A stretch of 41,206 nt of DNA. Origin: Spirochaetales bacterium (GTDB taxonomy: Bacteria > Spirochaetota > Spirochaetia > JAFGXN01). How positions within the stretch are numbered: position 1 is the first letter of the stretch; the number at the start of each line of letters is the position of its first letter. The notes beneath the pieces are model-generated. The model searched no databases. It was not told the DNA's origin and saw nothing but the letters and a program-made list of their open reading frames with translations. The stretch is from assembly GCA_016936615.1 (NCBI GenBank), contig JAFGXN010000115.1:1-41206 (forward strand), written 5' to 3'. Below are positions 8,896 through 29,809 of the stretch, piece after piece. Made by a program: the position numbers and the translations under genes.

Positions 8896-9432
8896 CTATC
8901 CTAAGAATCCAGCTGTCCACAAGAATGGATCTAATATCACAGTCTGAAAGATAAAGAGTAAGAAAAATGGGATACAAGCCCAGTACCAGATTGCTGCCTT
9001 GCGTGGCTTTAGCCCTAGAAAGAAGAGGAACAGCATCAAGGTGCCAAGACCCACGAAGAGAAGATCCATCTGAATCAGAACCCACAACCACGATGAAGGG
9101 CTTCGCATGTAAGCCAACGTCAGAGGCATCCAAAACACAGAGAAGATTAAGATTATCAAGAACGGCAAGTAAAAAGCCCGGTACGACAATCTCGACCACA
9201 TTCTGCTATTACTCGAATCTACCATAAAAATCAAGTAAGGGCTAAAGACAAGATAACTTATCATAGCAAGAAACATAAAGACAGTGTAGATTGGAATCAA
9301 GGATTCAGAGGTCTGCCCCCAGAAATCCATCCCCGAGCCCTCGTGCAGAAGAATCGAGACAACATAACTACCCAGAACAAATGCTCCCCCGACGAGATTT
9401 ATTATCAACAAAATTAAATTATCTTTTTTCAT
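8896..9432 (-). CDS. Polytopic membrane protein, unknown
   Basis: A 178-residue hydrophobic protein with about five membrane helices (roughly residues 8-28, 45-72, 88-110, 117-140 and 150-170), rich in Trp and Phe. No family motif is recognised. An AGGAG site precedes the ATG, and the gene begins 15 bases after the GH130 stop, so it is very likely the last gene of the GT4-GH130 operon. It might assist polysaccharide or lipid-linked sugar handling in the membrane. That is context-based inference only. Confidence 0.6.
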   Translation of the reverse strand: MKKDNLILLIINLVGGAFVLGSYVVSILLHEGSGMDFWGQTSESLIPIYTVFMFLAMISYLVFSPYLIFMVDSSNSRMWSRLSYRAFYLPFLIILIFSVFWMPLTLAYMRSPSSWLWVLIQMDLLFVGLGTLMLFLFFLGLKPRKAAIWYWACIPFFLLFIFQTVILDPFLWTAGFLG

Positions 9433-9447
9433 TAGAACTCCTTCTAT

Positions 9448-10380
9448 CTAAAGTGCGGGTCGTCCTCGCTTCAAACACATATCAACTAGCGTCTGAATAT
9501 CAGCCTCACCAACACACATAACCTTATCTGACCCGCCCCAATAAATCTTCACTGTCCCATCTTCTTCATCTACTGCACCACAGGTAAAGACAACATTATC
9601 AACGTAACCACTTAACTCCCAAGGATCTTCTGGCTGAAGAATAAAGTCATCCCCGACACCAAGAATAACCGAAGGATCATCTAGCTTGTGCAATGCAACC
9701 CCAAGACGATAGACTGCTCCCGACATTGTAGGAAAGACTCCGTGATAGATATTTAACCACCCTTCTTTTGTCTTGAATGGTGTCGCACCAGGTCCAATCT
9801 TCATCTCATCCCAATGATAGGTCACTGGCTTCATCACAATCTTTGAATTCCCCCAGTAGACAAGATCTGGAGAATAAGAGATCCACACCGACCAAGGCGA
9901 GATTTCTGAATGGGGGCGATCAAGCCGAACATACTGACCATCTATCTTCTCAGGAAATATTACTACATTTCGCATATCAGCCTGGCTAATTGGTGCAATC
10001 TTCTCGACAGTCTGAAAATCATAAGTCCTAGCAAGCATAATTCTCACACCATGCTTCGAATATGCACTATATGTCAACAAATACTCACCGCTATCCATAT
10101 GACAAATTCGCAAATCCTCGACGCCATACTCTTCATACTCTCCGAAGATTCCATCACTACTCGGCTCGATAAATGGCTTATCCCGAGGAATAAATTTATA
10201 GCCATCATCACTCTCTGCAATCCCAATAATTGAACGACCATTTGTCTTGTGTGACCTAAAAAGCATTATATATTTGCCATTATACTTTGTAACACCAGCA
10301 TTATGAACTGTCACAACTTCGTATGGAATATCTGATGCTGTCAAGATTGGGTTATTTTTATATCTTCTTACAACTGACAT
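9448..10380 (-). CDS. GH130-family mannoside phosphorylase-like protein (short form)
   Basis: A 310-residue five-bladed beta-propeller protein of glycoside hydrolase family 130 (formerly DUF377). Visible features: N-terminal RYKNNPIL, VHNAGV, the hallmark GVEDLR (Asp89 as candidate proton donor), the substrate region HSEISPWSVWISYSPDL, HWDEMKIGPGATP and YHGV. Family members phosphorolyse beta-1,2- or beta-1,4-mannosides to mannose-1-phosphate, and some act in reverse. There is no signal peptide, so it is cytoplasmic. AGGAGG lies 4 bases before the ATG. It is cotranscribed with the upstream GT4 gene (56-base gap). A second, longer GH130 protein is encoded at 13844. The exact linkage is not determinable here. 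Confidence 0.85.
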   Translation of the reverse strand: MSVVRRYKNNPILTASDIPYEVVTVHNAGVTKYNGKYIMLFRSHKTNGRSIIGIAESDDGYKFIPRDKPFIEPSSDGIFGEYEEYGVEDLRICHMDSGEYLLTYSAYSKHGVRIMLARTYDFQTVEKIAPISQADMRNVVIFPEKIDGQYVRLDRPHSEISPWSVWISYSPDLVYWGNSKIVMKPVTYHWDEMKIGPGATPFKTKEGWLNIYHGVFPTMSGAVYRLGVALHKLDDPSVILGVGDDFILQPEDPWELSGYVDNVVFTCGAVDEEDGTVKIYWGGSDKVMCVGEADIQTLVDMCLKRGRPAL

Positions 10381-10436
10381 AAATCCTCCTACTTAACTAA
10401 GTATAAAGTCAAAACACCCAAAAGCAAGAACTTAAC

Positions 10437-11447
10437 CTACCTGCTCAAGATTTTCTCATAAACTTTGATATAGTTCTCTACCATTATATTTACTGAAAAT
10501 CGTTGCTCTACTATCCTACGGGAGGTTGCTCGATCTAGAGAATCTAGATTTTTTATTGCATCTACTGCATCATCTACATTATCGACTAGATACCCATTTT
10601 GACCTGGCTGAATAAGTTCTAGCATGCTTCCCTTTGCAAAAGCAATTACTGGAGTACCGCAGGCCATAGCCTCCACGACGGAGAATCCAAACGGCTCGCT
10701 GAAATTTATCGGATGGAGAAGGGCATATGCATCGCCAAGTATCTTATTCCGGGCTTCAGGACCGACACTTCCGACATATTCTATCTGTTCACCAAGGAAA
10801 GGAGCAACAGTTGTATCAAAATAGTCTTGATCCTGAATTATTCCAGCCATTTTCATCTTCATTCCAGACTTCAAGGCTATCTGAACCGCCTCGGCTGCCC
10901 CCTTGTCATGGTGGAATCGTCCAAAGAAGAGTAGATATTCTTTTTTTATTTCTGGCTGCAAATCAAAATATTTCAAATCGATTCCATGATAAACAGTATC
11001 AATGTAATCAAGCGACTTAGCCCGATCTGCATTGCTAATCGAGACATAGTAACCATCGCGATTATACTTCTCATATACTGGGAGAATCTTCGAAGAGGAA
11101 AAACCATGAATTGTCGTAACCATTGGCGTCGAGACAAGTCGACTATATGATAGAGGTAAAAAGTCAAAACTATTGTGTAGGAGATCGTATTTCTGCGCAT
11201 TCTCAAAAAAATTAGAGATATGTAGAGCCTCCCCCACCTTCGGCTCCAACAATCTATCCTCCTCATACCCAGAAGCAACAGCTGAGCAGAGGGTTGCAGT
11301 TGTAACCGAATCCCCAGTAGCGTACAAATCAACATCAAGACCTCGGCTCACAAGCCCCTCAGTCAATAAAGAGACAAACTGCTCCCACGGCCCATAGTGA
11401 CGTGGCGGTGTTCGCCATGCAATTGGAGACAATATCCCGACCTTCAT
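10437..11447 (-). CDS. GT4-family glycosyltransferase
   Basis: A 336-residue retaining glycosyltransferase of the GT-B fold. The N-terminal acceptor domain starts MKVGILSPIAWRTPPRHYGPWE. The C-terminal nucleotide-sugar domain includes LLFFGRFHHDKG (about 172-183) and the donor-binding EPFGFSVVEAMACGTPVIA (251-269), with its EX7E motif. There are no membrane helices. GAGGAG precedes the ATG. It heads the minus-strand operon with GH130 and a membrane protein, and is divergent from the GT4-fusion gene, sharing a 102-base promoter region. The donor is likely a GDP- or UDP-sugar; the GH130 partners suggest mannose. Donor and acceptor remain inference. Confidence 0.85.
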   Translation of the reverse strand: MKVGILSPIAWRTPPRHYGPWEQFVSLLTEGLVSRGLDVDLYATGDSVTTATLCSAVASGYEEDRLLEPKVGEALHISNFFENAQKYDLLHNSFDFLPLSYSRLVSTPMVTTIHGFSSSKILPVYEKYNRDGYYVSISNADRAKSLDYIDTVYHGIDLKYFDLQPEIKKEYLLFFGRFHHDKGAAEAVQIALKSGMKMKMAGIIQDQDYFDTTVAPFLGEQIEYVGSVGPEARNKILGDAYALLHPINFSEPFGFSVVEAMACGTPVIAFAKGSMLELIQPGQNGYLVDNVDDAVDAIKNLDSLDRATSRRIVEQRFSVNIMVENYIKVYEKILSR

Positions 11448-11471
11448 AAATTACTCCTCACAAAAAATTAC

Positions 11472-11526
11472 TTGCTATATATTTTTTAATTACTTATATT
11501 ATAAATAGAATATCACAAAATTTAAA
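11472..11526. promoter_or_regulatory. Overlapping divergent promoters of the GT4/GH130 locus
   Basis: Plus strand: TTGCTA (11472-11477), 17 bp, TATATT (11495-11500), driving the GT4-fusion gene. Minus strand: -10 TATAAT (11503-11498), with a weak TTTAAA 17 bp upstream, driving the GT4 gene. The two -10 boxes overlap by three bases, so the operons probably compete for polymerase or are regulated together. Confidence 0.5.
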
Positions 11527-11549
11527 AAAATCAAGAAAGAGGTCAATTT

Positions 11550-13847
11550 ATGCTAGTTAATGAGAAAACAAAAATGAAAATTGCGTTTGTGGGGAATTAT
11601 TTGCCCAAAAAATGTGGAATTGCTACATTTACACACGATCTTAGAAAATCGGTGAGTAACTTTATTCCACACACAGAGTGCCAAATCTTTGCGATGAATG
11701 ATAAAAAAGAAAAAATATCCTATCCCCCCGAGGTTGTAGAGACTATAGAGAAGAATCAGATCTCTGATTATATTAAAAAGGCTGAACTTATAAATAAATC
11801 TAATTTTGACATTGTATCACTTCAACACGAATATGGGATTTTTGGGGGAAAAGAGGGGATTTACATAATTGAGTTTATTAAGCATCTCAAAGTCCCTATA
11901 GTTCCAACCTTCCATACGATTTTAAAGACTCCGACAGCAACGCAGAAATCTGTACTTAAAGAGATTATAGCCCTTTCTAGCAAGATTATTGTAATGTCAA
12001 ATACTGGAAAAGAGATTCTACGCGAAATATACGGAACCCCTGAAGAGAAGATTGCGATAATCCCTCACGGCATTCCAAATTCAAAACAGTTCTTTGATGG
12101 AAAAATTGAGGGGATTCCAGAAAATAAGACTAAGATCTTAACATTTGGACTTCTTTCTCCTAACAAGGGGATAGAATTTGCCATCAAGGCTATGGCTGAG
12201 GTAAAAAAGCAGCGAGATGATTTTATCTATATAATTGCTGGTCAAACCCATCCCAATTTGGTTATAAATGGAAAAGACAAATATCGAGAATATCTAACAA
12301 GCCTTGTAAAGGATAACAACCTTCAAGACAATGTAATTTTTATAAATAAATTCTTAGAAGAAAAAGACTTAGTCGACTACATAACATCAGCAGAAATATA
12401 TATAACCCCATACCTAAACGAGGCTCAGATCACTTCCGGGACGCTAGCTTTTGCCTACGGCTGTGGAAAAGCTGTTATATCTACTCCATATTGGCACGCA
12501 AGCGAACTACTTGCAAATGGCAAGGGGATCCTAGTTCCATTTAAGAATCAATCTGCTATTGCAGATTCAGTGATACAACTACTTGAATCTCCAGAAAGAA
12601 GAAAAGAGATTCAGACTAGAGCCTTCATGGACGGAAGATCTATGCTTTGGCAGAATACTGGGGGCAAATATACATACGAATATCTAAAAAGCTGCAGGAG
12701 TGAGACTTTTTCTACGAAAAAAAATAAAAACGAGAGTTTCCCTTCTATAAATTTAACTCATTTCATGGAGCTAAATGATTCAACTGGGATGTTACAACAT
12801 GGACAATTCAGCTTCAAAGATTACAACCACGGATACTGTATAGATGATAATGCTAGAGCCTTGATTCTCAACCTTGAGCTTATCAACAAATATGGAGAAT
12901 CGCATCCGGAGATTACCAAGAGACTAATTGATGTATCTAAGAACTATGCATCTTTTATAAATTATGCCTTCAACAAAGAGAACAACCATTTCAGAAACTT
13001 CATGAACTTCTCTAGACAATGGCTCGAAGATGAGGGCTCTCAAGACAGCGAAGGTCGAACAATCTGGGCTCTTGGGGTGGCTGCGAAATTACCGATTGAC
13101 AACAATATGTCAGAGTGGAGCAAGCAACTTATTCGACAGGTCTATAAAAATGTCAAGTCATATAATTTTTTACGATCTAACGCCTTTGCAATTTTGGGTC
13201 TGTGCGACTATCTATCTGTATTCAAAGATCCTGAAGCTAAGAAAATACTGAAATTGAGTAGCAAGAAGCTACACGAAGCTTACATCTCAAATCGGCAAGA
13301 AGGGTGGAATTGGTTTGATAATGAGTTAACATATGACAACGCAGCACTATGCCAAGCATTAATAAAGGCTGGAAATTTCTTAGAAGAAGAGAACTATATC
13401 AAAGATGGCATAGAGGCATTAAGCTGGTTGTACAAGACTACTATGAGAAAAGGGATTTTTTCTCCACCAGGTTGTAAAGGTTTTTATAAAAAAGGTGGAG
13501 AGTACCCTATCTTTGATCAACAACCACTTGAGGCCTGCTCGACAATAAGTGCCTGCATCGAGGCGTGGAAGAGTACCGAGGACAAGTTATGGACTAGCCG
13601 CGCGATGAATGTTTTTTCATGGTTCACAGGCAACAACATAATCGAATGTCCAGTTTTTGACATGACAAATGGTGGCTGTCATGATGGAATAACTGAGACG
13701 GGACTGAACAGGAATATTGGTGCCGAGTCTACCCTCTCGTTCCTAATCTCTCAAGTAAAGATTAGCGAGGCATTAACCCAGCAGGGTGAAAATATAGCAG
13801 CGCAGGCAAGCTGTAATGAAAAATCCCTTTCAAGGAGCTCTAAATGA
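11550..13847 (+). CDS. GT4 glycosyltransferase fused to (alpha/alpha)-barrel glycosidase-like domain
   Basis: A 765-residue two-domain protein. Residues 8-375 are a GT-B/GT4 glycosyltransferase: KCGIATFTHDL (21-31), LQHEYGIFGG (91-100), IIPHGIP, LLSPNKG, and a C-terminal donor site with EAQITSGTLAFAYGCGKAVIS (291-311). Residues about 400-740 form a helical, probably six-hairpin barrel with conserved acidic and aromatic motifs: YCIDDNAR (429-436), WNWFDNELTYDNA (586-598), FDQQPLEA (655-662), GGCHDGI (708-714) and NIGAESTLSFL (722-732). The second domain looks enzymatic, but I cannot name its activity. The ATG has AGAGG 7 bases upstream and the gene overlaps the next GH130 start by 4 bases. Together this suggests coupled synthesis and trimming of a mannose-containing glycan. 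Confidence 0.82.
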   Translation: MLVNEKTKMKIAFVGNYLPKKCGIATFTHDLRKSVSNFIPHTECQIFAMNDKKEKISYPPEVVETIEKNQISDYIKKAELINKSNFDIVSLQHEYGIFGGKEGIYIIEFIKHLKVPIVPTFHTILKTPTATQKSVLKEIIALSSKIIVMSNTGKEILREIYGTPEEKIAIIPHGIPNSKQFFDGKIEGIPENKTKILTFGLLSPNKGIEFAIKAMAEVKKQRDDFIYIIAGQTHPNLVINGKDKYREYLTSLVKDNNLQDNVIFINKFLEEKDLVDYITSAEIYITPYLNEAQITSGTLAFAYGCGKAVISTPYWHASELLANGKGILVPFKNQSAIADSVIQLLESPERRKEIQTRAFMDGRSMLWQNTGGKYTYEYLKSCRSETFSTKKNKNESFPSINLTHFMELNDSTGMLQHGQFSFKDYNHGYCIDDNARALILNLELINKYGESHPEITKRLIDVSKNYASFINYAFNKENNHFRNFMNFSRQWLEDEGSQDSEGRTIWALGVAAKLPIDNNMSEWSKQLIRQVYKNVKSYNFLRSNAFAILGLCDYLSVFKDPEAKKILKLSSKKLHEAYISNRQEGWNWFDNELTYDNAALCQALIKAGNFLEEENYIKDGIEALSWLYKTTMRKGIFSPPGCKGFYKKGGEYPIFDQQPLEACSTISACIEAWKSTEDKLWTSRAMNVFSWFTGNNIIECPVFDMTNGGCHDGITETGLNRNIGAESTLSFLISQVKISEALTQQGENIAAQASCNEKSLSRSSK

Positions 13848-15301
13848 AAGTAAAAAGATACGATATCGAACTCAGACCAGATAGTACGAGGGTCTTATAC
13901 CGGCCATTTATCGGAATGAGTGGCGAGCGAATGCTTAGAATTATAGCCAGGGTTCAATCGCTTAGCGAAGAAGAGGTACAACTTGAGTATAAAAAAGTTA
14001 TGGAGGATTTTCATAATCGCCATCTCGAGTTGCATGATTTTCTACTAAAAAATTACAAGCTAATCCATCCAATGCTAATTAAAGACCAGGTCATGTCTGA
14101 AGAGAGAAAACTACTTCTCGGAGCCTTTTTTACCCAAGAATACTCTCTTGAATCTGCCGCACTTTTTAACCCGTCAATGATATGGCATCCAGATCAGAGC
14201 GAGCTTCCAGAAGGGGCAAAGAGATTCATAATAAGTTTGAGAGCTACAGGCGAAGGTCATATCTCTTCTATAAGCTTCAGATCAGGAATTGTAACCGCTA
14301 ATGGGGCGATAAAAATGGATGCTCCTTCACAATTTGTTACACTTCCAAAGCCGAAGCCAGATATTGAATACAACAAAAAGCTTTTTACCCTTAAGCTAGG
14401 TGAGCTCGGTCTGTACAACGAGGTCTCAACAATGGTTATGGATAAATTAGATAATAATTTTACATTAAAAAGGCTAAACGAGGTTATCAACTTTTACAAA
14501 AGGCAAGACCATTTTAACTCTGGGAAATTTTATACAGTAACAAATGGAATGATAACGCTAGCCCAATCAAACTACAAGGTAAAATTCTTAGAATCACAGG
14601 ATATTTCACAGCGCACGATATTCCCATATGCACCAGCCGAGGTCAATGGTATTGAAGATGCGAGATTTGTTGAATTTACTGATGACGATGGGGAGAAAAC
14701 CTTCTATGCAATGTATACAGCATATGATGGAAAGGTAATTCTTCCACAAATGCTTGAAACAAGAGATTTCCTCGAGTTTGACATAAGCACACTGAATGGA
14801 CCAGCAATAGAGAACAAGGGGTTAGCTCTTTTTCCAAGAAAAATCAATGGAAAATATATGATGATTTCACGACAGGATAATGAAAGCATGTTCATAATGG
14901 AATCTGATAATATTCATTTCTGGTACAACAAGGAGATTCTCGTGAAACCAGCCTATCCGTGGGAATTTGTTCAGATAGGTAACTGCGGATCTCCAATCGA
15001 AACTGACGAGGGATGGATATTGCTGACTCACGGAGTAGGGCCGATGAGAGAGTATGCGATTGGAGCAGTATTGTTGGACTTGAAAGACCCGAAAAAGGTG
15101 ATAGGTCGTCTAGCAGAGCCACTTCTCGCACCGAATGAAAATGAAAGAGAGGGGTATGTCCCTAATGTTGTCTATAGTTGTGGAGGGCAAATTCACAATG
15201 ACAGACTATACATCCCATATGCGATGTCAGACTATGCTAGTACCTTTGCCTCTGTTAGTGTAAAAGAACTTCTAAAAGAGCTGAAAAAAAATAAAATATA
15301 A
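13844..15301 (+). CDS. GH130-family phosphorylase-like protein (long form)
   Basis: A 485-residue GH130-type protein with about 170 extra N-terminal residues before the propeller, largely helical (residues 35-100), which may drive oligomerisation. The hallmark motif NGIEDARFV gives Glu271-Asp272 and Arg274. Other family features are FPRKINGKYMMISRQD, HFWYN and an ETDEGWILLTHGVG segment. The start codon overlaps the GT4-fusion stop (ATGA), with AAGGAG upstream, showing translational coupling. It is cytoplasmic. The difference in length from the GH130 at 9448 suggests distinct substrates, for example chain versus disaccharide, as known for paired beta-1,2-mannoside phosphorylases; that assignment is inference. 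A strong terminator follows. Confidence 0.83.
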   Translation: MKVKRYDIELRPDSTRVLYRPFIGMSGERMLRIIARVQSLSEEEVQLEYKKVMEDFHNRHLELHDFLLKNYKLIHPMLIKDQVMSEERKLLLGAFFTQEYSLESAALFNPSMIWHPDQSELPEGAKRFIISLRATGEGHISSISFRSGIVTANGAIKMDAPSQFVTLPKPKPDIEYNKKLFTLKLGELGLYNEVSTMVMDKLDNNFTLKRLNEVINFYKRQDHFNSGKFYTVTNGMITLAQSNYKVKFLESQDISQRTIFPYAPAEVNGIEDARFVEFTDDDGEKTFYAMYTAYDGKVILPQMLETRDFLEFDISTLNGPAIENKGLALFPRKINGKYMMISRQDNESMFIMESDNIHFWYNKEILVKPAYPWEFVQIGNCGSPIETDEGWILLTHGVGPMREYAIGAVLLDLKDPKKVIGRLAEPLLAPNENEREGYVPNVVYSCGGQIHNDRLYIPYAMSDYASTFASVSVKELLKELKKNKI

Positions 15302-17045: not shown

Positions 17046-17978
17046 TTATTTAGCTGTCTTAACCGACCAGACCCGCCCCTTATTCTGAAGAACAACATAT
17101 CCACGCTTCTCCGCATCCAGGGCAAGCTTCTTAAACTTAGAATAACCCAGCTCCTTGTATGGAACCTTCTTCGCAATATCTGTAAAATGAACCCAATCCT
17201 TCTCACGCTTTAAGATCTCCAGCAACTTCTGGAAAACCTGAGGGATCTCCTGAGCAATATTCTGTCTGGCTATCAATATATTTTTATTCTCATCAGCATA
17301 ATCAACCTCAGAATGGGCAATCGCATCATTAACAAAGGCTCTCCACGACCTGTAATCTAACTTTTTCTCATCAAAAGCATCATTAAGCAGCTTCATCTTA
17401 ATCTTCACAGAACCAAGTGAAGGCTTCTTCTTCTCTTTCAGCATCAGAACAACAGCTTCTTGGAAAAGTTCATACGCCTGCGGTCTAGAAAGAAAATCCT
17501 TCGAATCAGAGTCCTCATCTTTTTCATCATCATCCGAATCAGCCTCAATAATTCGCCGGTAATCAAAATATTGGTCAGCCATCTTGAGCAAATCCTCAGA
17601 AGCATTATTCTTAACATCACAAATTATCCAAGTCTCTTTACCATACTTTTTGAAGGAAGTCAGAAGAGGCCTAAAATCACTATCACCAGTAATCAAAATA
17701 AATCGCTCAATATGAGGATACTGGAAAATCAACTCCACACCACGAGTAATCAACGATATATCAGCACTATTCTTCTTCGATTGCGGAATATGAACCAGCT
17801 CAAAACTATGTGCAGCAATCTCCCCAGCAATATTCTTTATATTCCCCTTATTCCAATCAGCAAAAGCAAGTGCATATGACACCTTGCAATCCTTAGCAAT
17901 CCACTCAACAATCGAATGAACATAACTATCCGACGGCGTTACATTCTCAACATCCCATAAAATCGCAGTCTGTTTCAT
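17046..17978 (-). CDS. NYN-domain ribonuclease with LOTUS/OST-HTH domains
   Basis: A 310-residue cytoplasmic protein. Residues 1-145 are a NYN (PIN-like, LabA/DUF88) nuclease domain with its acidic metal site: Asp9 in WDVEN, Asp73 in SADISLI, and Asp99/Asp101 in TGDSDF. Residues about 165-235 and 240-310 look like two winged-helix modules of the LOTUS/OST-HTH type, which bind RNA. An acidic linker (about 147-160, rich in Asp/Glu) separates them. Bacterial NYN-LOTUS proteins are presumed RNA-processing nucleases. AGGAG precedes the ATG. It stands alone between a lipoprotein gene and the lipoprotein array. Confidence 0.82.
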   Translation of the reverse strand: MKQTAILWDVENVTPSDSYVHSIVEWIAKDCKVSYALAFADWNKGNIKNIAGEIAAHSFELVHIPQSKKNSADISLITRGVELIFQYPHIERFILITGDSDFRPLLTSFKKYGKETWIICDVKNNASEDLLKMADQYFDYRRIIEADSDDDEKDEDSDSKDFLSRPQAYELFQEAVVLMLKEKKKPSLGSVKIKMKLLNDAFDEKKLDYRSWRAFVNDAIAHSEVDYADENKNILIARQNIAQEIPQVFQKLLEILKREKDWVHFTDIAKKVPYKELGYSKFKKLALDAEKRGYVVLQNKGRVWSVKTAK

Positions 17979-18207: not shown

Positions 18208-20100
18208 TTATTTATTTGCTCGGTAGACTTGAATCTTATCAATCTGCAGATCTGTGTTGAATTGTTCGAATTCTAGAGTATTAAGATCTATAGAGCCACC
18301 GATAATTTCATAGAAATTCTTCACTCCAGTAAAATATAAGTAATCATCCGAAGCTGAAAAATTTACAATTGTCAAACGGTCAGCATCTGGAACATTCTTT
18401 AATACATCTATGAAATCGTTTGAACTTTCATCCAACATACTACACATCAATATTTTACTCGAACCAGGATCATCACCGTCTATACAAAAGAAAAGATTAT
18501 TAGAAGAGCTAACACATTTTGAAGGAAAGAAAGGATCTAAATTCTCATTTTCCAAAATTTTCAAGACTGAATTATATATAGAGATGCTCTTAACACCATC
18601 AGAATCAAACAACTTAACAGGAATGCTAGCTATATCAAGAGACCATAAAGAACCTGAACTATCGTAAACAAATGAATATTTATCTCGGTCAAGAAGTGCA
18701 ACCCCTTTAGATGAAAAATAATTCTTCGTTCTCATTTTTTCGATAGAATCAAAAACTTCTTCATATTCCTTAATAGAACCTTCAAACCATCGACTTTGAG
18801 AAACAGCATCCAAGGCTTTTTGCCCACTCTTCCCATCAAAAGATATATCAGAATAATCCAGATTATTCTTAAACTGCAGATTCAAAATCTTATAGATTTC
18901 ATATGAACTCTTTTCTTCTATCGCATAACTCATGTCAAAGCCGTATTTTTCAAAACTTTCAATAAAAGCAATCGAATCAGATCCAGCTATATCAACTAAA
19001 GGTTCGTCACCAGAAGTTGAAAAAACAACTCTAACCCTGTTAGCTCTTGCTGCTTCAACGATATCTTCGTGAGATATAGTGATCCCACTTTCACCACTCC
19101 CTCTTAGCTTCCCAGAAGACTCATGTAAAGAATACCTGAAATAAGCCTGCGAGCCCTCTACTGTTACAAAAAGAGTCTTTTGCAAATATTCAACATCTAC
19201 AAAATGTTTTTTCGCTATTGAAAGATTCGACTGTGCAAGAAAAGGCTGTCGATCCAACGACCAATCATCATTAATAAAAATCTGTTCAGCCCCCATAAAG
19301 ATGGAATTACTGTCTTTTGAAAATAAATATGGATAGACTTCAAATTTTCCATAATTTATTACAGACTTATAACCGCTGCTAATAGTCTTTGTATCATACA
19401 AATAAATAAACTTCTCGCTATTTGCACCAGCATCGCCAACTTTCCCAGATAGAATCATTTTTTGAGAATCAGGCGAAATAGCAAATTCGTCTAAGAACAA
19501 GTTTTCTAACTCTGGAGTTAAGCGAGAGATTTGACCAGTCTCTATAGAATACTTTCCTAGTCCAGAATGATATTTCTCACCACGATATGTATACAAAAAA
19601 TACAAATCTCCACTGGCATCGAACTGAATATAACTTTCAATTCTAGCTTCCGGACTTACAAATGCAGAGAAATCATATAAGCACTCTAAAAATCCTCCTG
19701 AAGGACTAGACTCAAATGGAAAAACCGACACAACATCGCCATTGCCTCTAATTCTGACAAATCTAGAAAATCGGACATCTCCAATAGCAACAATTCCAGA
19801 TTGGTCAAAAATAACAAATAAATCATCAGTGACCGGAGACATAATTACTGCACTAATCTTTGCTTTTTGATACTCAGGAGAGATCTCAAGAAAAGGCTCT
19901 AACTTACCACTTTCCATTATCTTTGCAAGCGCTACTGAATCTTGAGATCCTCTAGAATTCTCAGAGCTACCATAAGTAGCAACAGCTCTAACACCTGCAA
20001 GATCTACATGCTTTTCAAGAAGAGGATACCCCTCCACAGTCTTAGCAAAACACCCCAACAAAAAAAGCACACATATAAACAAAACAAAATTTCTTTTCAT
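18208..20100 (-). CDS. Tandem paralogous lipoprotein 3 (propeller-like)
   Basis: A 630-residue lipoprotein. The start at 20100 is favoured by AGGAG 5 bases upstream and a signal peptide with lipobox LLGC; the longer frame adds seven residues without a ribosome site. The N-terminal half has repeated beta segments such as DDLFVIFDQSG, GDLYFLYTY and SPDSQKMILSGK, typical of a beta-propeller. A central helical part contains DISFDGKSGQKALDAVSQSRWF. The C-terminus repeats the propeller style with FSASDDYLYFTG and ends IQVYRANK. It shares these blocks with the two genes upstream. It is last of the trio and is followed by a terminator. The ligand is unknown. Confidence 0.78.
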   Translation of the reverse strand: MKRNFVLFICVLFLLGCFAKTVEGYPLLEKHVDLAGVRAVATYGSSENSRGSQDSVALAKIMESGKLEPFLEISPEYQKAKISAVIMSPVTDDLFVIFDQSGIVAIGDVRFSRFVRIRGNGDVVSVFPFESSPSGGFLECLYDFSAFVSPEARIESYIQFDASGDLYFLYTYRGEKYHSGLGKYSIETGQISRLTPELENLFLDEFAISPDSQKMILSGKVGDAGANSEKFIYLYDTKTISSGYKSVINYGKFEVYPYLFSKDSNSIFMGAEQIFINDDWSLDRQPFLAQSNLSIAKKHFVDVEYLQKTLFVTVEGSQAYFRYSLHESSGKLRGSGESGITISHEDIVEAARANRVRVVFSTSGDEPLVDIAGSDSIAFIESFEKYGFDMSYAIEEKSSYEIYKILNLQFKNNLDYSDISFDGKSGQKALDAVSQSRWFEGSIKEYEEVFDSIEKMRTKNYFSSKGVALLDRDKYSFVYDSSGSLWSLDIASIPVKLFDSDGVKSISIYNSVLKILENENLDPFFPSKCVSSSNNLFFCIDGDDPGSSKILMCSMLDESSNDFIDVLKNVPDADRLTIVNFSASDDYLYFTGVKNFYEIIGGSIDLNTLEFEQFNTDLQIDKIQVYRANK

Positions 20101-20125
20101 ATTAACTCCTATAAAACTCATACAA

Positions 20126-22021
20126 CTACATTTTCTTCTTAGGATTATAAACCTGGATGCTTTTTAATTTACAAGCAGTCTCAAATGGCTTAAACTCTAG
20201 CGTATCAATATTCACAGATCCACTAACGACTGTAGAAAAATTAACCAACCCTGTAAAGTACAAATTGCCATCTGATACTGAGAAATCAACAATTTGAAGA
20301 TTCTCAGAGCTTGGAACATTTTTCAAAACATCTACATAAGAAGAGGAGTTTTGATCGACCATGCTGCACATCAAGATTTTATGTGTTCCTAAAGCTGAAT
20401 CTTCGCCACTTACTTTAAAGAAAATATTATTCCCAGAAATTTTATAAGGAATAGCCTCTGTCCGATTTGGTTGAGTTTCGATGGCATTTTTTATAGAATC
20501 AAAGACCTTAACATCTTTAACTCCAGCGGAAGTAAAGATTCTAACAGGATACCCATAATAATTAGCCCACAAAGCTCCAGATTCATCATAAAAATAAGAA
20601 TATGTTTCAACAGAATAATTGTGACTTTTAATATTTTTTTCCTCTAAATATGTTATCACCTGAGCAATATCTTCAACACCAAGAAATTCTCTCATGGTCT
20701 TAGAACCGGCAAACCATGTTCTTTCGGAAAATGCTTTCAATGCAGCCTCTCCAGTAAGACCATCAAAAGAGATCTCAGAATAATCGATGTCACGAACTAA
20801 GCCTCCATTTATAATGTCATAAACTTTATCTGCAGAATACGAATCAACAAAAAAAGACAAATCATAGCCATGAACTTCAAACATATCAAGAAATTCTATC
20901 AATTTATCACCGTCAAAAGATACATCTATTCCTGTACGAGAAGAATTTGCATCAGTTAAATCAAAAGTAATTTTGGCTCTTTTTTCACGTATTGCGTTAA
21001 CTATATCTTCCGAAGAAATATCTGCTCCCGTAACCTCTAATTTTTTATTAGATAAAGAACTTCTATCTAATTGGTATTCTGCATACTCTGTTGAATCTGC
21101 CCCTTTTATAGATATCTTGTAAGCTGAAGATTTAGCAAAAGCTCCAAAATAATATTCAGAAGGTAAACTTGATGGTATAATTATAGAAGAATTAGTTGTC
21201 CATTCATCCGTTGTCTCATCTATAAAAATCTGCTTATCATTCATATAAACTGCTTTACTATCCTTGGAAAACAGAAAAGGCATTTTATTGCTAGACTCCT
21301 CATAATATAGAGAGACTTGATATCCATACCTCATATCATTAGTATCATATAGATGGATAAAAGAGGCCTTATAATCAATCTGACCAGACAATATAAGCTT
21401 CGAAGAATCAGCAGAAATAGCAAAAGAATCCAAAGATAGCTTTGAAAGTCGCGGAGTTAATATCTCAATGGAATCTTCATCTAATGAATACTTAACAAGT
21501 CCAGATAAATGAGAATTCTTTCCAGGGATACTTGCAATAAAATACATATCTCCATACTCGTCAAATTGAACAAAATCAGTAGGATAGTTATATAAAGAAT
21601 AGTTACAATATAATCTCCCTGTCGAATCAGAGTCTAATGGAAAAACAGAAAGAATATCTCCACTTCCTGTAACTCTTACAAAATTGGGAAAATTAACACC
21701 ACCTAAAACAAGACTATTGGAATCAAAAACTAAAAACAAATCATCGGTAGAAGGTGAAACAATTACAGAAGAGATAGGAGGAACATTATCCCCATCAGAA
21801 AGATTCTCAAACAAATCAATCAAACGTCCATCTTCCATTATTTTCCCAAAACCTGAAGCTGCCTCAGAGCTTCTCGAAGAATCACTAACCTCGTAAGTAG
21901 TAACCAACTTCGCTCCAGACAAGTCTACAAAGTTATCTAACTTAACGTAAACAGATGTCTCTGGTTTTATACAAGCTGAAAACAATAAACAACATAATAA
22001 AAAAATCATATTTTTCTTCAT
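20126..22021 (-). CDS. Tandem paralogous lipoprotein 2 (propeller-like)
   Basis: A 631-residue lipoprotein with signal peptide and lipobox FSAC (Cys17). The same architecture as its neighbours is evident: LVDLSGAKLVTTYE-like opening, DDLFLVFDSNS, AISADSSKLILSG, the central ISFDGLTGEAALKAFSERTWFAGS block, HKILMCSMVDQ and the closing LYFTGLVNFSTVVSGSVNIDTLEFKPFE. GGAG is 5 bases upstream of the ATG. It starts 9 bases after the previous gene and ends 25 bases before the next, so it is operonic. Divergence between copies is greatest in the middle of the propeller-like N-terminal region, consistent with altered ligand or surface exposure. Confidence 0.78.
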   Translation of the reverse strand: MKKNMIFLLCCLLFSACIKPETSVYVKLDNFVDLSGAKLVTTYEVSDSSRSSEAASGFGKIMEDGRLIDLFENLSDGDNVPPISSVIVSPSTDDLFLVFDSNSLVLGGVNFPNFVRVTGSGDILSVFPLDSDSTGRLYCNYSLYNYPTDFVQFDEYGDMYFIASIPGKNSHLSGLVKYSLDEDSIEILTPRLSKLSLDSFAISADSSKLILSGQIDYKASFIHLYDTNDMRYGYQVSLYYEESSNKMPFLFSKDSKAVYMNDKQIFIDETTDEWTTNSSIIIPSSLPSEYYFGAFAKSSAYKISIKGADSTEYAEYQLDRSSLSNKKLEVTGADISSEDIVNAIREKRAKITFDLTDANSSRTGIDVSFDGDKLIEFLDMFEVHGYDLSFFVDSYSADKVYDIINGGLVRDIDYSEISFDGLTGEAALKAFSERTWFAGSKTMREFLGVEDIAQVITYLEEKNIKSHNYSVETYSYFYDESGALWANYYGYPVRIFTSAGVKDVKVFDSIKNAIETQPNRTEAIPYKISGNNIFFKVSGEDSALGTHKILMCSMVDQNSSSYVDVLKNVPSSENLQIVDFSVSDGNLYFTGLVNFSTVVSGSVNIDTLEFKPFETACKLKSIQVYNPKKKM

Positions 22022-22029
22022 AATAACTC

Positions 22030-23880
22030 CTAATGCCTATAAACCTGAATACTCGAAAGTTCTAAATCTGTTTCAAACGGCTTAAACTCGCCTGTCTTTA
22101 AATCAACAGAACCACTAATAACATAGAAAAAGTTAACTAGGCCAGTAAAATAGAAATAATCATCTGATGCAGAGAAGTCGAGAACCTGGATTCGGCTACC
22201 CCTCGGAACATTTTTGAACAGATCAACATAGTTCGCAGTTTCATCAGTCAGACTACACATTAAAATTTTATGAGTTCCAGGAGCTTCTCCTTTTTCCTTA
22301 AAAAAGATATTATCTCCATAAATATTATACTCAAGATTTCCAAAACCAAAAGAAGATCGATAATCGGAAACAAAATTGGCAAAAGATTCAAAAACTTTTA
22401 CATTCCTTCTTCCTTCTTTATCGTAGAGTCTGAAGATACTGTAATTAGAGCAAGTCCATAGAGCCCCTGTGCTGTCATAAAAAAAACTTTTTCTCCAGAA
22501 ATATCCTTTAGCACCTCGAGAACTAATATAATTATTAACAGATTGAACATCGATATTTAAAACCTTACAATAATTCAACCGCTCAGGACTACCAAACCAC
22601 CTGATTTTTGAGACCGAATCTAAAGCATCCCTTCCAGTCTTTCCGTCAAAAGAAATATCTCTATATTCTAAATCCCGAACTAGCCCAGAATTTGCCATGT
22701 CATAAATTTCATCTGGGGTGTATCTTTTAGCTGTAAAATACAAATCATTTCCATATTCTTCAAATTTCTGCAAGAACTCGACTAACTCATCACCTTCAAA
22801 AGAAAAACGAGAGGAAGACACGTAATAACTAGTACTATATAAAACGAGTTGAGCTTTCCCGCTTTCAATTAACTCAGAGATTGAACTATAATCAAGGTTG
22901 CCTTCGGAACCAGAGGCCTGGAGAGATTTGTCGTTGACTGTCAATTCATAATCAACAAAATCAGTCGAAGAGCTATGTTTTACCCTAAAGATTTTCTTCA
23001 TATCATCAAATAAAATAAAGGAATCATAGTAGTTAACCAGCTCTGACTTTACTGTAAGCGTCCAATCATCGTTAATATAGTAACGGGAACCTAAAGCAAA
23101 AAAAGTTCTATTATCTTCTAAAAAAACAGCATTACTAACAGAGACGCCACCATTTCCATAATAGACTACACTCTTATACCCACTCATATCATTTGTATCA
23201 TACAAGAAAACAAAACCCTTTTTTTCGCCAATCTTTCCGCTTAAAAGAAGCTTAGAAGAATCAGAAGAAAGAGAAAAACCATCAATAGATATTCCCCTCA
23301 AATTAGGTGTTATTACAGAAGTCAGTCCTGAATCAATAGAATACTTTACGAGAACAGAACTAGGAAGTAACGCAATGAAATAAATATTTCCTGCATTATC
23401 AAATTTCAATCTATCCTCTATACGGAAATCTGAAAATCCTGCAAAAAACCCATAAGGTTCCGTACTGCTACGATCCTCAGGCATAGGCAAAACAGTCATC
23501 AAATCCCCATCGGGATTTATCCTCACGATATTTGAAAAATTCATTCCTCCTAAATTTACCACATTGCTAGAGAAAACTAAAAATAAATCATTAGTCACAG
23601 GGGACTGAATTATAGCAGTTATTTCTGGCAAATAATTCCCAGCTGCCTCTGCAGATCTAAAAAGAGATTCAATCCTCCCATCTTCCATAACCTTAACCAG
23701 ACCAAAAACATTTTCTGTGTTTCTAGAATTAGAATCACCGTTACTTACCCCGACCGCTGTTGCTCCCGAAAGATCAAAATGGCTTCTTATGACAGGATAA
23801 TTAAGTTTATTACTAAAACTATTCGGATCGCACCCAAAGAGCATCAACAATAATGCGATAAAGATAAAATTTTTCTTCAT
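22030..23880 (-). CDS. Tandem paralogous lipoprotein 1 (propeller-like)
   Basis: A 616-residue lipoprotein, first in the operon, with signal peptide and lipobox LFGC (Cys17). Shared blocks with its two paralogues: HFDLSGATAVGVSNGDSNSR near the N-terminus, NDLFLVFSSN, SLSSDSSKLLLSGK, DISFDGKTGRDALDSVSKIRWFGS and HKILMCSLTDE near residue 550, then FSASDDYFYFTGLVNFFYVISGSVDLKTGEFKPFETDL. AGGAG lies 5 bases before the ATG. A good promoter is visible at 23902-23930. It faces away from the fucosidase gene. No named family is recognised; repeated Ser-rich beta strands suggest a propeller domain. Function unknown. Confidence 0.78.
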   Translation of the reverse strand: MKKNFIFIALLLMLFGCDPNSFSNKLNYPVIRSHFDLSGATAVGVSNGDSNSRNTENVFGLVKVMEDGRIESLFRSAEAAGNYLPEITAIIQSPVTNDLFLVFSSNVVNLGGMNFSNIVRINPDGDLMTVLPMPEDRSSTEPYGFFAGFSDFRIEDRLKFDNAGNIYFIALLPSSVLVKYSIDSGLTSVITPNLRGISIDGFSLSSDSSKLLLSGKIGEKKGFVFLYDTNDMSGYKSVVYYGNGGVSVSNAVFLEDNRTFFALGSRYYINDDWTLTVKSELVNYYDSFILFDDMKKIFRVKHSSSTDFVDYELTVNDKSLQASGSEGNLDYSSISELIESGKAQLVLYSTSYYVSSSRFSFEGDELVEFLQKFEEYGNDLYFTAKRYTPDEIYDMANSGLVRDLEYRDISFDGKTGRDALDSVSKIRWFGSPERLNYCKVLNIDVQSVNNYISSRGAKGYFWRKSFFYDSTGALWTCSNYSIFRLYDKEGRRNVKVFESFANFVSDYRSSFGFGNLEYNIYGDNIFFKEKGEAPGTHKILMCSLTDETANYVDLFKNVPRGSRIQVLDFSASDDYFYFTGLVNFFYVISGSVDLKTGEFKPFETDLELSSIQVYRH

Positions 23881-24045: not shown

Positions 24046-26268
24046 ATGAAACGTTTATTTTTGTCAATATTGCTGTGTTACATGTTTAATTCAACATTTG
24101 CACAGGTTGAATTTTCAAATTTAGTTGAAATTGAACCAACAGACAGTGATCAGCAGATTATTGAGAAGGCAGCTCACATAATCCCAACAAAGATCCAGAT
24201 GGATTATCTTAGAAATGAATATATTGCTTTTATCCACTTTGGTGTGAATACGTTCAACAGCGTAGAATGGGGTACAGGATTCGAGGATCCTGCTGTCTTT
24301 GCACCTACCGCTCTTGATACAGATCAGTGGTGCAGAATTATGAAAGAGGCTGGCATGACACTGGTTGTCCTAACTGTCAAACACCACGATGGTTTCTGCC
24401 TCTGGCCAACCCGCTACACCGACCACAGCGTTGCTTCCTCGCCAAACTTCCAGAATGGACAAGGCGATGTACTGCGCGAGTTGTCCAAATCTGCTCAGAA
24501 GTATGGGCTCAAACTCGGAGTCTACCTTTCACCAGCAGATCTTTACCAGATTGAGAACCCAAAAGGGCTCTACGGCAATGGCAGTTCATACAGCGACAGA
24601 GTAATCCCCCGCCCAGTTGAAGGTAGACCTTTTTCCAACAAAAAAACATTCAATTTCAATGTTGACGACTATAACGAGTACTTTTTAAATCAGTTGTTCG
24701 AGCTTTTAACCGAGTATGGTCCTGTTCACGAGGTCTGGTTCGACGGTGCTCATCCAAAACAGAAAGGCAATCAAACATACACCTACAATGCATGGTATAC
24801 CTTGATCCGAGAGCTAGCCCCTGAAGCAGCAATCTTTGGCAAAGGTCCAGATGTGAGATGGTGTGGCAACGAAGGTGGCCAGACACGACAATCTGAATGG
24901 AATGTCATCCCTCTTAACACACACCCAGAGAAGAACTCATGGAACGACCTCGATTGGGATGATCTAGGCAGCCTCGAACAACTTCGCAAAGGCAAATTTC
25001 TCTATTATCTCCCAGCCGAGACCAACACCTCAATCCGCCACGGCTGGTTCTACCGCGATGACACCACCCAACAAGTGCGATCCGCAGCTGACATTCTCGA
25101 CATATACGAGCGCTCAGTCGGCGGCAACTCTGTCTTCATGCTCAACATCCCACCCAACCGGCAGGGAAGATTTTCCCCACGTGATGAAGAGGCGCTAATC
25201 GAATCAGGCCGCAGAATCCGCGAGATATACGCAAACAACCTAGTAGATCTTTCACTTTTGGAAAAAAATTTAATTGACTCAGATCTAACAACTTTTTCCC
25301 AAGAAAAAGAGATTATAATCCCAATTCAGGCAGGAGAAAAAGTCAACCGACTAGTCATTCAAGAGGCGACCCCAGTCAGAGGACAGAGAGTCGCAGCCTT
25401 CGAGATTGACTTCGACGACAACGGACAATGGAAGAACATCTACACAGGAACAACTATCGGCTACAAGAAGATTTCCCGATTCGCGACTGTAGAGACAACT
25501 AGATTCAGAGTTAGAATCACAGATTCAAGACTAGAGCCATCAGTCGCCGAAGTGGGCGCATTCTTTGCACCAGAATATCCACCAGCACTCTCGATAAGCA
25601 GAAATAGCTTTGGAAAAGTTACAATTACCCCAGTCTCATCATCTTTTTCATGGAAAGGAGAAGGAGTCAACGACAACCTCGCAGGCGTAGAAATCTACTA
25701 CACACTCGATGGAAGCGACCCAAGCCCCACAAACGGGCAAAGATACACAGGAGCGATAAAACTAGAAGATGGCGGAAGGTTAAAAGCAGCCGCCTACAAG
25801 AATGGCAATCCTGGTGCCTTGAGCGAGAAGATCTACGGTCTAGCAAAGAAAAACTTCTCGGTGCGGCTACTACGATCTGCAAAATCACGGATCGGCTTTC
25901 TTTTTTTTAAAATGCTAGACAGCAATCCGCAGACAGCATGGCTTAGCCGAGATCCAATGCCAAGCCCAGTTGTCTTTGATTTGAAAAAAGCACGGGAGAT
26001 CACAGGTTTTGCATGGATGCCACCACAAGGAGTTGCTGGCAATGCTGGAATGGTCAGCGAAGGCTACTTTGAAATTAGCGATAACCTCAAAGATTGGACA
26101 AAGATTGACTCATACCAGTTTGGCAACATCATCAATGATCCAAGCCAGAGATTTTTCTACTTTAGCAAACCAGTAACTGCACGCTACCTCAAATGGGTTG
26201 CAACAACTGGCGCAGCTGAGAACAAGATCTCAGGTGCAGCCCTGTTTGAAATTCTTGTAACAAAATAG
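24046..26268 (+). CDS. Secreted GH29 alpha-L-fucosidase with C-terminal accessory domains
   Basis: A 740-residue enzyme that releases alpha-L-fucose from glycans. A signal peptide (residues 1-19 or 20, ending STFA-Q) has no lipobox Cys, so the product is periplasmic or secreted. The GH29 barrel (about 45-390) carries IAFIHFGVNTF, the substrate motif KHHDGFCLWPT (112-122), and VWFDGA with the predicted nucleophile Asp233. An F5/8-like region (about 400-505) is followed by a chitobiase C-like module (YYTLDGSDPSP, about 555) and a second discoidin-like domain at the end (about 620-738). Subtype B (alpha-1,3/1,4) looks likely from overall shape. It points to host or plant glycan use. Confidence 0.9.
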   Translation: MKRLFLSILLCYMFNSTFAQVEFSNLVEIEPTDSDQQIIEKAAHIIPTKIQMDYLRNEYIAFIHFGVNTFNSVEWGTGFEDPAVFAPTALDTDQWCRIMKEAGMTLVVLTVKHHDGFCLWPTRYTDHSVASSPNFQNGQGDVLRELSKSAQKYGLKLGVYLSPADLYQIENPKGLYGNGSSYSDRVIPRPVEGRPFSNKKTFNFNVDDYNEYFLNQLFELLTEYGPVHEVWFDGAHPKQKGNQTYTYNAWYTLIRELAPEAAIFGKGPDVRWCGNEGGQTRQSEWNVIPLNTHPEKNSWNDLDWDDLGSLEQLRKGKFLYYLPAETNTSIRHGWFYRDDTTQQVRSAADILDIYERSVGGNSVFMLNIPPNRQGRFSPRDEEALIESGRRIREIYANNLVDLSLLEKNLIDSDLTTFSQEKEIIIPIQAGEKVNRLVIQEATPVRGQRVAAFEIDFDDNGQWKNIYTGTTIGYKKISRFATVETTRFRVRITDSRLEPSVAEVGAFFAPEYPPALSISRNSFGKVTITPVSSSFSWKGEGVNDNLAGVEIYYTLDGSDPSPTNGQRYTGAIKLEDGGRLKAAAYKNGNPGALSEKIYGLAKKNFSVRLLRSAKSRIGFLFFKMLDSNPQTAWLSRDPMPSPVVFDLKKAREITGFAWMPPQGVAGNAGMVSEGYFEISDNLKDWTKIDSYQFGNIINDPSQRFFYFSKPVTARYLKWVATTGAAENKISGAALFEILVTK

Positions 26269-27675: not shown

Positions 27676-28935
27676 TTAAACAGCCCTAACTTTCTCAATT
27701 GCTAGCGTTTCTTGCTGAGCTTGATAATATTCATTTAAAAACCTAACAACTGAATGACCCACTGCTGTAGCTAAATTTACCGGAACAGCATTTCCAATCT
27801 GCTTATATTGTTGAGACATTGAGCCCTCGAAGATCCAATCATCGGGAAATGTTTGAATACGAGCATATTCTCGAACAGTAAAGGGGCGGGTTTCTTCAGG
27901 ATGGCAACGTTCTGTCTGTTTTTGCGCTGGAGCGCAGGTCAAAGTCAAACTAGGTTCATCCCAGCTAATTCGCCGAGCCATTCCAGTTTTACCACCACCT
28001 AAATAAAAACTTTTCAACATGTATTCTTTCTGAATTTCAAGAGGTAAATCTCTCCAATATCCTCCTGGAGGAACTAGATCTAAAATTTCCTTCTTCCTTT
28101 TTGGATATTTCTGACCATCTGACTCAGGAACATCAGAGTCATACAACTCACCAGCTTTCAATGCATCTCGCAATGTAAAAATACGACCTTCCGCTTTTGG
28201 GTATGTAAAATCTATTGAAATGTCATTTCTGATAGCAACAAGAACTAACCGCTCCCTCTTCTGAGGAACTCTATAATATATTGCTTTTAACACCTGATAA
28301 GGCAGGACTCGATAACCTAATTCTTCCAAGACATCAATCATACCATTTAAAGTTTTGCCATTTTCATGACTCAAAAGACCTCGAACATTTTCTGCAATAC
28401 AAATTTTAGGTTTTATCTCTTTTATTGCCCTTGCATATTCAAAAAATAGAGTTCCCCTAGCATCATCAAATCCCAATTTTTTCCCAGCATAACTAAATGC
28501 CTGACAGGGAAAACCACCAGTAACAACATCGATTTTTCCGAAATATGGCCTAAAATCTAAATTACGAATATCACCTTCTACAACATTCCACTCAGGACGA
28601 TTGCGTCTAAGAGTACTACATGCCCACTTATCAAACTCATTCAACAAGACATGATGAAGCCCTGCCTGCTCCAAACCCAAAGCAAGACCACCAGCCCCAG
28701 CAAATAATTCAATTGTGGAATAGTCTCCAAAAGGCTTTTCTAGCTCAGGCTCTGAATCATCTGGGAAATATAGATTCAATTGCTCACAAACCCTCAAATG
28801 TTCATCGGTATAAAATCTATATCCATTTATTTTATTCCGCTCAGCAGACAAATGACCAGAATTATCCCACCTTCGCAAAGTCTCTTTAGATACTGAAATT
28901 TTTTGAGCAAATTCTTCAATTGAGTATGTTTTCAC
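27676..28935 (-). CDS. C5 cytosine DNA methyltransferase with N-terminal MerR-like HTH
   Basis: A 419-residue modification enzyme. I prefer the GTG start at 28935: an AGGATGG site lies upstream and the product then starts like a MerR HTH (MKTYSIEEFAQKI). The open frame reaches 28956. Residues 1-65 are the HTH. The methyltransferase follows with motif I FAGAGGLALGL (about 78), catalytic GGFPCQAFS (Cys144), ENVRGL, QKRERLVLVA, and the C-terminal YKQIGNAVPV. It protects sites from the Eco47II-type nuclease encoded just upstream (81-base gap). The HTH suggests self-repression at the inverted repeat 28937-28969. Confidence 0.93.
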   Translation of the reverse strand: MKTYSIEEFAQKISVSKETLRRWDNSGHLSAERNKINGYRFYTDEHLRVCEQLNLYFPDDSEPELEKPFGDYSTIELFAGAGGLALGLEQAGLHHVLLNEFDKWACSTLRRNRPEWNVVEGDIRNLDFRPYFGKIDVVTGGFPCQAFSYAGKKLGFDDARGTLFFEYARAIKEIKPKICIAENVRGLLSHENGKTLNGMIDVLEELGYRVLPYQVLKAIYYRVPQKRERLVLVAIRNDISIDFTYPKAEGRIFTLRDALKAGELYDSDVPESDGQKYPKRKKEILDLVPPGGYWRDLPLEIQKEYMLKSFYLGGGKTGMARRISWDEPSLTLTCAPAQKQTERCHPEETRPFTVREYARIQTFPDDWIFEGSMSQQYKQIGNAVPVNLATAVGHSVVRFLNEYYQAQQETLAIEKVRAV

Positions 28936-28936
28936 G

Positions 28937-28969
28937 ATAACCATCCTACACAACATTAGTCATGGTTAT
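28937..28969. promoter_or_regulatory. Inverted repeat just upstream of methyltransferase start
   Basis: ATAACCAT (28937-28944) and ATGGTTAT (28962-28969) with 17-bp spacing. It brackets the ribosome site of the methyltransferase gene and is a candidate operator for its own MerR-like HTH. Confidence 0.5.
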
Positions 28970-29016
28970 TATTTTACTCTAAATTCTTTTTTTTTACTAT
29001 ATTTTTCTTGAAAAAT

Positions 29017-29757: not shown

Positions 29758-29809
29758 TTTCTCCCCCCTCATTCCAACCAATTCTACAACTAAAATTCAG
29801 CTTAGTCAA

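Follow-up and report, generated by a model that had tools for sequence, protein, structure and literature searches.

A widespread gene pair encoding a GT4-barrel fusion and a GH130 protein, and its possible part in cytoplasmic mannoside turnover

The window analysed here is the whole 41,206 nt stretch of contig JAFGXN010000115.1, from the genome assembly GCA_016936615.1 of a Spirochaetales bacterium. The five open reading frames called by the initial annotation all exist between positions 8896 and 15301, where they form two divergent transcription units:

8896-9432, minus strand: membrane protein of 178 aa, an orphan without a Pfam match, judged to lie outside the module
9448-10380, minus strand: GH130S, a short GH130 protein of 310 aa, identified by PF04041 and by its pairing with GTshort
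10437-11447, minus strand: GTshort, a second GT4 protein of 336 aa, identified by Pfam and by phmmer matches to 7fg9/8x3q
11448-11549: spacer of 102 bp between the two divergent units, with promoter-like sites near the chance number
11550-13847, plus strand: GT4-barrel fusion of 765 aa, with GT4-type Pfam domains over cut-off, a barrel model and 80 named relatives
13844-15301, plus strand: GH130L, a long GH130 protein of 485 aa and probable beta-1,2-type mannoside phosphorylase, identified by PF04041, its kept residues and its own deep clade

The start of GH130L overlaps the end of the fusion gene by 4 nt; on the other strand, 56 nt separate GTshort from GH130S and 15 nt separate GH130S from the membrane protein gene. 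The enzyme families assigned from the bare sequence held up well: GH130S and GH130L match PF04041 at 178.8 and 114.9 bits respectively, against a cut-off of 26, and both glycosyltransferases exceed the Pfam cut-offs for the GT4-type domains PF00534/PF13692. The four enzymes, read by eye, also have no visible signal peptide, as had been noted. The membrane protein had been counted as a member of the set; a search of 59 relatives gave no match to it and nothing corresponds to it in the other loci, so the five-gene unit was rejected. Nor is there much to set the proposed overlapping divergent promoters apart from chance, the spacer containing three promoter-like sites against 1.4 +/- 1.2 in shuffled sequences.

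The remainder of the window has features of its own. Three tandem proteins of 616-637 aa without a Pfam match are encoded at 18208-23880 on the minus strand. At 17046-17978, on the same strand, an NYN nuclease-domain protein also matches LOTUS (OST-HTH) weakly; the two domains are more familiar together in proteins that regulate RNA. An alpha-L-fucosidase with F5/8-type and Fn3-associated domains, unlinked to the module, is found at 24046-26268 on the plus strand. A complete-looking type II restriction-modification system at 27676-29781 on the minus strand comprises an Eco47II restriction endonuclease and a C5 cytosine methylase whose N-terminus bears a MerR-type domain, an unusual fusion.

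Searching genome contigs with the window fusion alone found nothing, while a profile built from 13 fusions recovered at least 586 candidate stretches, of which the best 80 were kept, all encoding both domains. These best 80 of at least 586 are distributed over the Bacteroidota, Ignavibacteriota, Verrucomicrobiota, Pseudomonadota, Planctomycetota, Chloroflexota, Acidobacteriota, Myxococcota, Spirochaetota, Kiritimatiellota, Fibrobacterota and KSB1, and plasmid loci add the Fusobacteriota and Deinococcota; the count of at least 12 phyla is taken from submitter titles. A GH130 gene adjoins the fusion in 74 of the 80 named loci, and in 73 of the 77 that have at least 1 kb of sequence downstream; L056, L086, L102 and L105 have this much sequence but no GH130 nearby. 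When plasmid loci are included, the two genes share a strand in 71 of 74 adjacent pairs, and in 64 of the 74 they share a strand and either overlap or lie no more than 60 nt apart; the fusion and GH130 genes can be regarded as usually forming one operon. The association extends to the level of whole genomes: among 60 from the Spirochaetia, a match to GH130L was present in all 16 with the fusion, against six of the 44 without it (Fisher test, 5e-10). The suggestion that all five genes might stay together across phyla therefore gives way to a core of fusion and GH130, with GTshort and GH130S as a second pair.

Other arrangements of the same parts were also detected. L128 and L129 have a GH130L-GT4-GH130 order without the barrel, and L136 has three GH130s with a GT4. 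The Spirochaetia loci L130 (7325-11967) and L131 (7037-11577) contain GH130L, a PIG-L-like deacetylase, a GT4 and a GH100/MGH1-like barrel glycosidase; L130, with its separate barrel, looks like a split version of the GT4-barrel-GH130 trio, and both sets are possible split relatives of the fusion module that mix in features of mycothiol-type synthesis. In L134 (38-6000) and L135, GH130L is followed by a 764 aa protein without a Pfam or NCBIfam match and a GH65, possibly representing a different phosphorylase cluster.

Orthologues of GH130S, at 50% identity or more, were found in nine loci, the window among them, and each of the nine has the gene directly behind GTshort on the same strand. GTshort itself was found in seven of the 60 Spirochaetia genomes, all of them bearing the fusion (Fisher test, 3e-5). 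On the Ilyobacter plasmid pILYOP02 the four genes stand in a single row. Among the loci compared, it is an Ilyobacter plasmid that carries the closest relatives of GH130S (72% identity) and GTshort (63%). This, and the absence of the fusion from the two genomes of the same family as the window, make gain by transfer possible; in the tree of fusions, the window copy forms a long branch of unreliable placement.

The nearest solved relative of GTshort is the glucosylsucrose synthase TeGSS, to which it aligns from end to end (phmmer to 7fg9/8x3q, E around 1e-70). TeGSS uses UDP-glucose (PMC9909042), hence one of the two glycosyltransferases may not use mannose. A sucrose-phosphate phosphatase in the same genome would have hinted at the acceptor of GTshort; the search returned a weak generic HAD match only, as it did in most control genomes.

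The GH130 proteins were compared through a FastTree phylogeny of 123 sequences, with local support values only, including seven solved references taken from printed alignments. GH130L falls in a deep clade of 87 rows that contains no solved reference. A short GH130 clade of 15 provides an alternative partner for the fusion, and in four loci, from Planctomycetota and one unplaced bacterium, the partner groups with Lin0857 and Uhgb_MS. The partner is thus always a GH130 protein, yet is drawn from several clades of the family, so GH130 activity itself seems to be required.

What this activity might be is suggested by individual residues. GH130L keeps the acid Asp272 along with Lys325, Arg343 and His396, and the catalytic Asp, the Lys/Arg, Arg, His and Tyr are kept in nearly every row of all the GH130 clades. 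In GH130 mannosidases the phosphate-binding basic residues are replaced by Glu, and their loss marks hydrolases (PMC4599007); by this rule, the retention of the basic residues indicates that the GH130 proteins of the module are of the phosphorylase type. The beta-1,2 enzymes of the family are marked by a specificity determinant, Lys199 of BT3780 (PMC4599007). The discriminating column of our alignment, occupied by Lys in the four references of beta-1,2 type and by Arg in those of beta-1,4 type, is likely to correspond to this position, BT3780 being outside the alignment. The beta-1,2-type Lys is present in 86 of 86 GH130L sequences, 16 of 16 short partners and all four Lin0857-like partners. 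GH130S, conversely, has Arg in this column in nine of nine orthologues, as do the beta-1,4-type references, with Arg-Asn in place of the Lys-Asp of beta-1,2-type enzymes. Against the NCBIfam equivalog models for beta-1,2-mannobiose phosphorylase (NF050092/NF052550), GH130L and GH130S score 152-232 bits where 550 is needed and 148-187 where 450 is needed. Both being far below these cut-offs, the linkage assigned to either is a prediction.

The fusion protein consists of a GT-B glycosyltransferase with GT4-type domains (approximately residues 1-380), a loose linker (385-395) and an (alpha/alpha)6 barrel (approximately 395-745). The helical barrel recognised by the initial annotation is predicted with high confidence by AlphaFold2, with a mean pLDDT of 93.9 and a pTM of 0.93. 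The full-length protein was modelled to ask whether the glycosyltransferase and barrel active sites face each other; this model has a pLDDT of 88.4 and a pTM of 0.55, with the linker below 50, and does not fix the mutual placement of the domains. Foldseek searches with it returned GT4 structures at the top, the matches to the glycosyltransferase part including MshA, BshA, PimB', PimA and ManT, and among the 50 matches listed there was no chain spanning both domains.

The four motifs originally quoted for the barrel are present and conserved beyond chance. The residues D432, D433, N434, R436, W586, W588, Y595, N597, D656, Q657, Q658, N722, G724, E726 and S727 do not vary across 76 barrels, 97% of which also keep E661; the invariant acids are D432, D433, D499, D656, D712 and E726. 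No convincing identity for the barrel emerged from Pfam, searched with the window barrel and its 76 relatives, or from NCBIfam, so the 'glycosidase' label it had been given was a guess. Its best structural match is 7tem (YPO2471), with a Z score of 40.5 over 332 residues at 22% identity, followed by cellobiose 2-epimerases and mannose isomerase (Z 30-31), GH76 alpha-mannanases (Z around 28, with no Pfam GH76 match) and MmpH (Z 25.8); families absent from this listing are not taken as excluded.

The matches behind 7tem raise the alternative of a sugar 2-epimerase or isomerase activity for the barrel, which might, for example, turn a glucosyl into a mannosyl end in the manner of cellobiose 2-epimerase; the fusion would then couple transfer to epimerisation. 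The predicted fold is indeed the (alpha/alpha)6 barrel of the AGE, or sugar 2-epimerase, superfamily (Z around 31), and two Rhizobium plasmids have an AGE-family gene right after the fusion-GH130 pair. However, known AGE-superfamily enzymes use two histidines in the barrel helices, and no column with at least 90% His was found within these helices in the 76 barrels: the only columns above 90% are residues 404 and 417, both ahead of the first barrel helix. Profile comparison of the barrel with an AGE protein also shows no similarity. We consider an epimerase distinctly improbable, and favour, as a supposition, a glycosidase or transglycosidase role for the barrel.

The supply of mannose was approached through an unbiased census of neighbouring genes, covering 777 ORFs in 100 loci. 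The only outside family often recurring directly beside the module is a ManA-like protein, present in 11 loci and adjacent in 10. The gene is directly upstream in 10 loci, mostly alphaproteobacterial, and includes a Sinorhizobium gene annotated as a class I mannose-6-phosphate isomerase; these neighbours score below the TIGR00218 cut-off. In sphingomonad plasmids a gene for mannose-1-phosphate guanylyltransferase (GMP) is immediately upstream of the fusion; the single copy scanned scores 403 bits against an NCBIfam cut-off of 373. The neighbouring GMP and ManA-like genes are an indirect hint that the fusion may use GDP-mannose. The genome of the window itself encodes a ManA over the cut-off, a GMP-like protein below it, and PGM/PMM proteins, all away from the locus.

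Such a combination of genes might serve to recover imported beta-mannosides as GDP-mannose, the salvage role proposed for Thermoanaerobacter Teth514_1788/1789. That cluster holds a mannose-1-phosphate guanylyltransferase and a GT4 together with two GH130 beta-1,2-mannoside phosphorylases (PMC4264767). However, the ABC sugar transporter and GH5 of that cluster are not found beside the window genes; across the 100 loci, no family of transporters turns up repeatedly within 300 bp of the module, and one ABC ATPase family is present within 5 kb in six of them; and salvage leaves unexplained why the fused GT-barrel should be the most constant partner. It is accordingly a highly unlikely reading. Gene clusters for envelope glycans commonly include GT4 enzymes, with GDP-mannose as a usual donor, hence the glycosyltransferases could alternatively build a surface or secreted glycan that the GH130 proteins edit or recycle. 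Against this, the census of 100 loci shows no recurrent flippase, polymerase, exporter or lipid-carrier transferase, and the enzymes are those already described as free of visible signal peptides; we regard a surface role as improbable. The initial annotation had held that action of the GH130 proteins on imported plant mannan products only, or a relative's locus tied to an exported polysaccharide, would count against an internal polymer. The census found neither a transporter nor an export gene recurring directly beside the module.

A rival less easily set aside is that the product is a small protective oligosaccharide, a compatible solute made by the same enzymes under heat, salt or desiccation and removed by the GH130 proteins after the stress. 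In three sphingomonad plasmids (L115, L139 and L141) a GMP-fusion-GH130 cassette is found in an integrase-bounded region with genes for GrpE, DnaK, DnaJ and a universal stress protein; these islands also carry a HAD-IIB phosphatase, and Dps in two of the three. For these plasmid copies, a protectant fits better than a reserve. A chaperonin gene is found within 5 kb in five named loci, and glucosylsucrose, the product of TeGSS, rises in salt-stressed cyanobacteria (PMC9909042). On the other hand, the three islands look like one mobile-element lineage, WP_007406228.1 being common to two of them, the HAD-IIB protein reaches no specific sugar-phosphatase model, and in most loci, including the window, no stress genes recur beside the module. 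For the module as a whole we therefore judge a protectant somewhat unlikely, albeit credible. The genome of the window also has two GT5-type genes, of the glycogen-synthase family, such that a second reserve is not obviously needed; together with the stress islands, this makes storage one option among several.

The gene set probably makes an internal mannose compound and recycles it. Our preferred reading, held tentatively, is that it forms a cytoplasmic mannoside-turnover module most likely to keep an internal mannose-containing reserve, and the cycle formed by the fusion and GH130L is best read as one of cytoplasmic mannoside synthesis and phosphorolysis. In such a cycle the GT4 domain of the fusion would move mannose from GDP-mannose to an acceptor or growing chain, forming an alpha bond, and the fused barrel may then trim or remodel the product, by analogy with MmpH and ManT in mycobacteria. 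GH130L, judging by its residues, would reversibly add or remove beta-1,2-mannose with alpha-mannose 1-phosphate and phosphate, the sugar being recovered by phosphorolysis as mannose 1-phosphate at no cost in ATP. ManA, phosphomannomutase and mannose-1-phosphate guanylyltransferase would tie this pool to fructose 6-phosphate and GDP-mannose. An accessory pair, GTshort and GH130S, would probably start or decorate the molecule, perhaps with glucose.

The chemistry sets a limit to the mannogen-like storage system originally proposed for this locus. GT4 is a retaining family, and alpha-mannosides are expected from GDP-alpha-mannose. GH130 enzymes act on beta-mannosides (PMC4264767, PMC4599007), so a mannogen of one linkage does not fit: the two activities concern different bonds, and either at least one step is missing or the product is of mixed linkage. 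Either the GT4 enzyme lays down an alpha primer or backbone on which beta-1,2 units are attached and released by the GH130 proteins, or one of the enzymes departs from its family. Hence the proposal survives as a cytoplasmic mannose-linked set, given the GH130 residues, the beta-1,2-type Lys, the GDP-mannose genes and the pairing across phyla, but not as a single-linkage polymer. A more specific version, in which a mixed alpha/beta-1,2-mannoside serves as a bacterial reserve in a dozen phyla, extended and trimmed by the bifunctional GT4-barrel and yielding mannose 1-phosphate through GH130, we put forward as an unlikely but definite proposal.

The conservation of the pair in at least 12 phyla, with a barrel that has no Pfam family, suggests a common piece of bacterial carbohydrate physiology. 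Were its product a mannose reserve or protectant, the mannogen idea, so far tied to one group of parasites, would take in many bacteria, and a deep GH130 clade, into which none of the solved structures compared here falls, would gain a function. The enzymes look soluble and of ordinary size, and the cultured hosts include Spirosoma, Bosea, Bradyrhizobium, Geothrix and Ilyobacter.

The system appears to be undescribed, although every part resembles something known; no description of the gene unit was found in the open-access literature, a scope that makes this weak evidence. Leishmania mannogen, as summarised in PMC8950772 and PMC3290622, is similar in being an intracellular beta-1,2-mannan, turned over by dual-activity GT108 enzymes with a GH130-like fold, but it is eukaryotic, involves another CAZy family and is not known to involve a GT4-barrel fusion; the module described here is known from gene content and pairing, from conserved residues and from a predicted fold. 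The Thermoanaerobacter cluster Teth514_1786-1789 likewise combines a GT4, two GH130s of different type and a GDP-mannose supply, but includes a sugar transporter and a GH5, and no barrel is described in the available text of PMC4264767. Its GH130 proteins share the beta-1,2 Lys with GH130L but fall in another clade. TeGSS differs from GTshort in context, being encoded beside sucrose-phosphate synthase rather than GH130 genes. YPO2471 (PDB 7tem), a putative exported protein, has the same barrel fold and an N..GAEST motif in common with the fusion, but is predicted to stand alone, the solved chain having no glycosyltransferase domain. ManT (a GT4) and MmpH (an alpha-1,4-endomannosidase), of the mycobacterial methylmannose polysaccharide pathway, differ in being encoded by two separate genes, accompanied by methyltransferases and without a GH130 (PMC9883506). 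The acid Asp47/Asp50 and base Glu262 of MmpH have been assigned (PMC9883506), whereas the catalytic residues of the barrel described here are candidates. Nevertheless, this pair also combines a GT4 mannosyltransferase with a helical-barrel enzyme in the metabolism of an intracellular mannose polymer (PMC9883506), and both ManT (7qsg) and MmpH (7qsj) are among the structural matches of the fusion.
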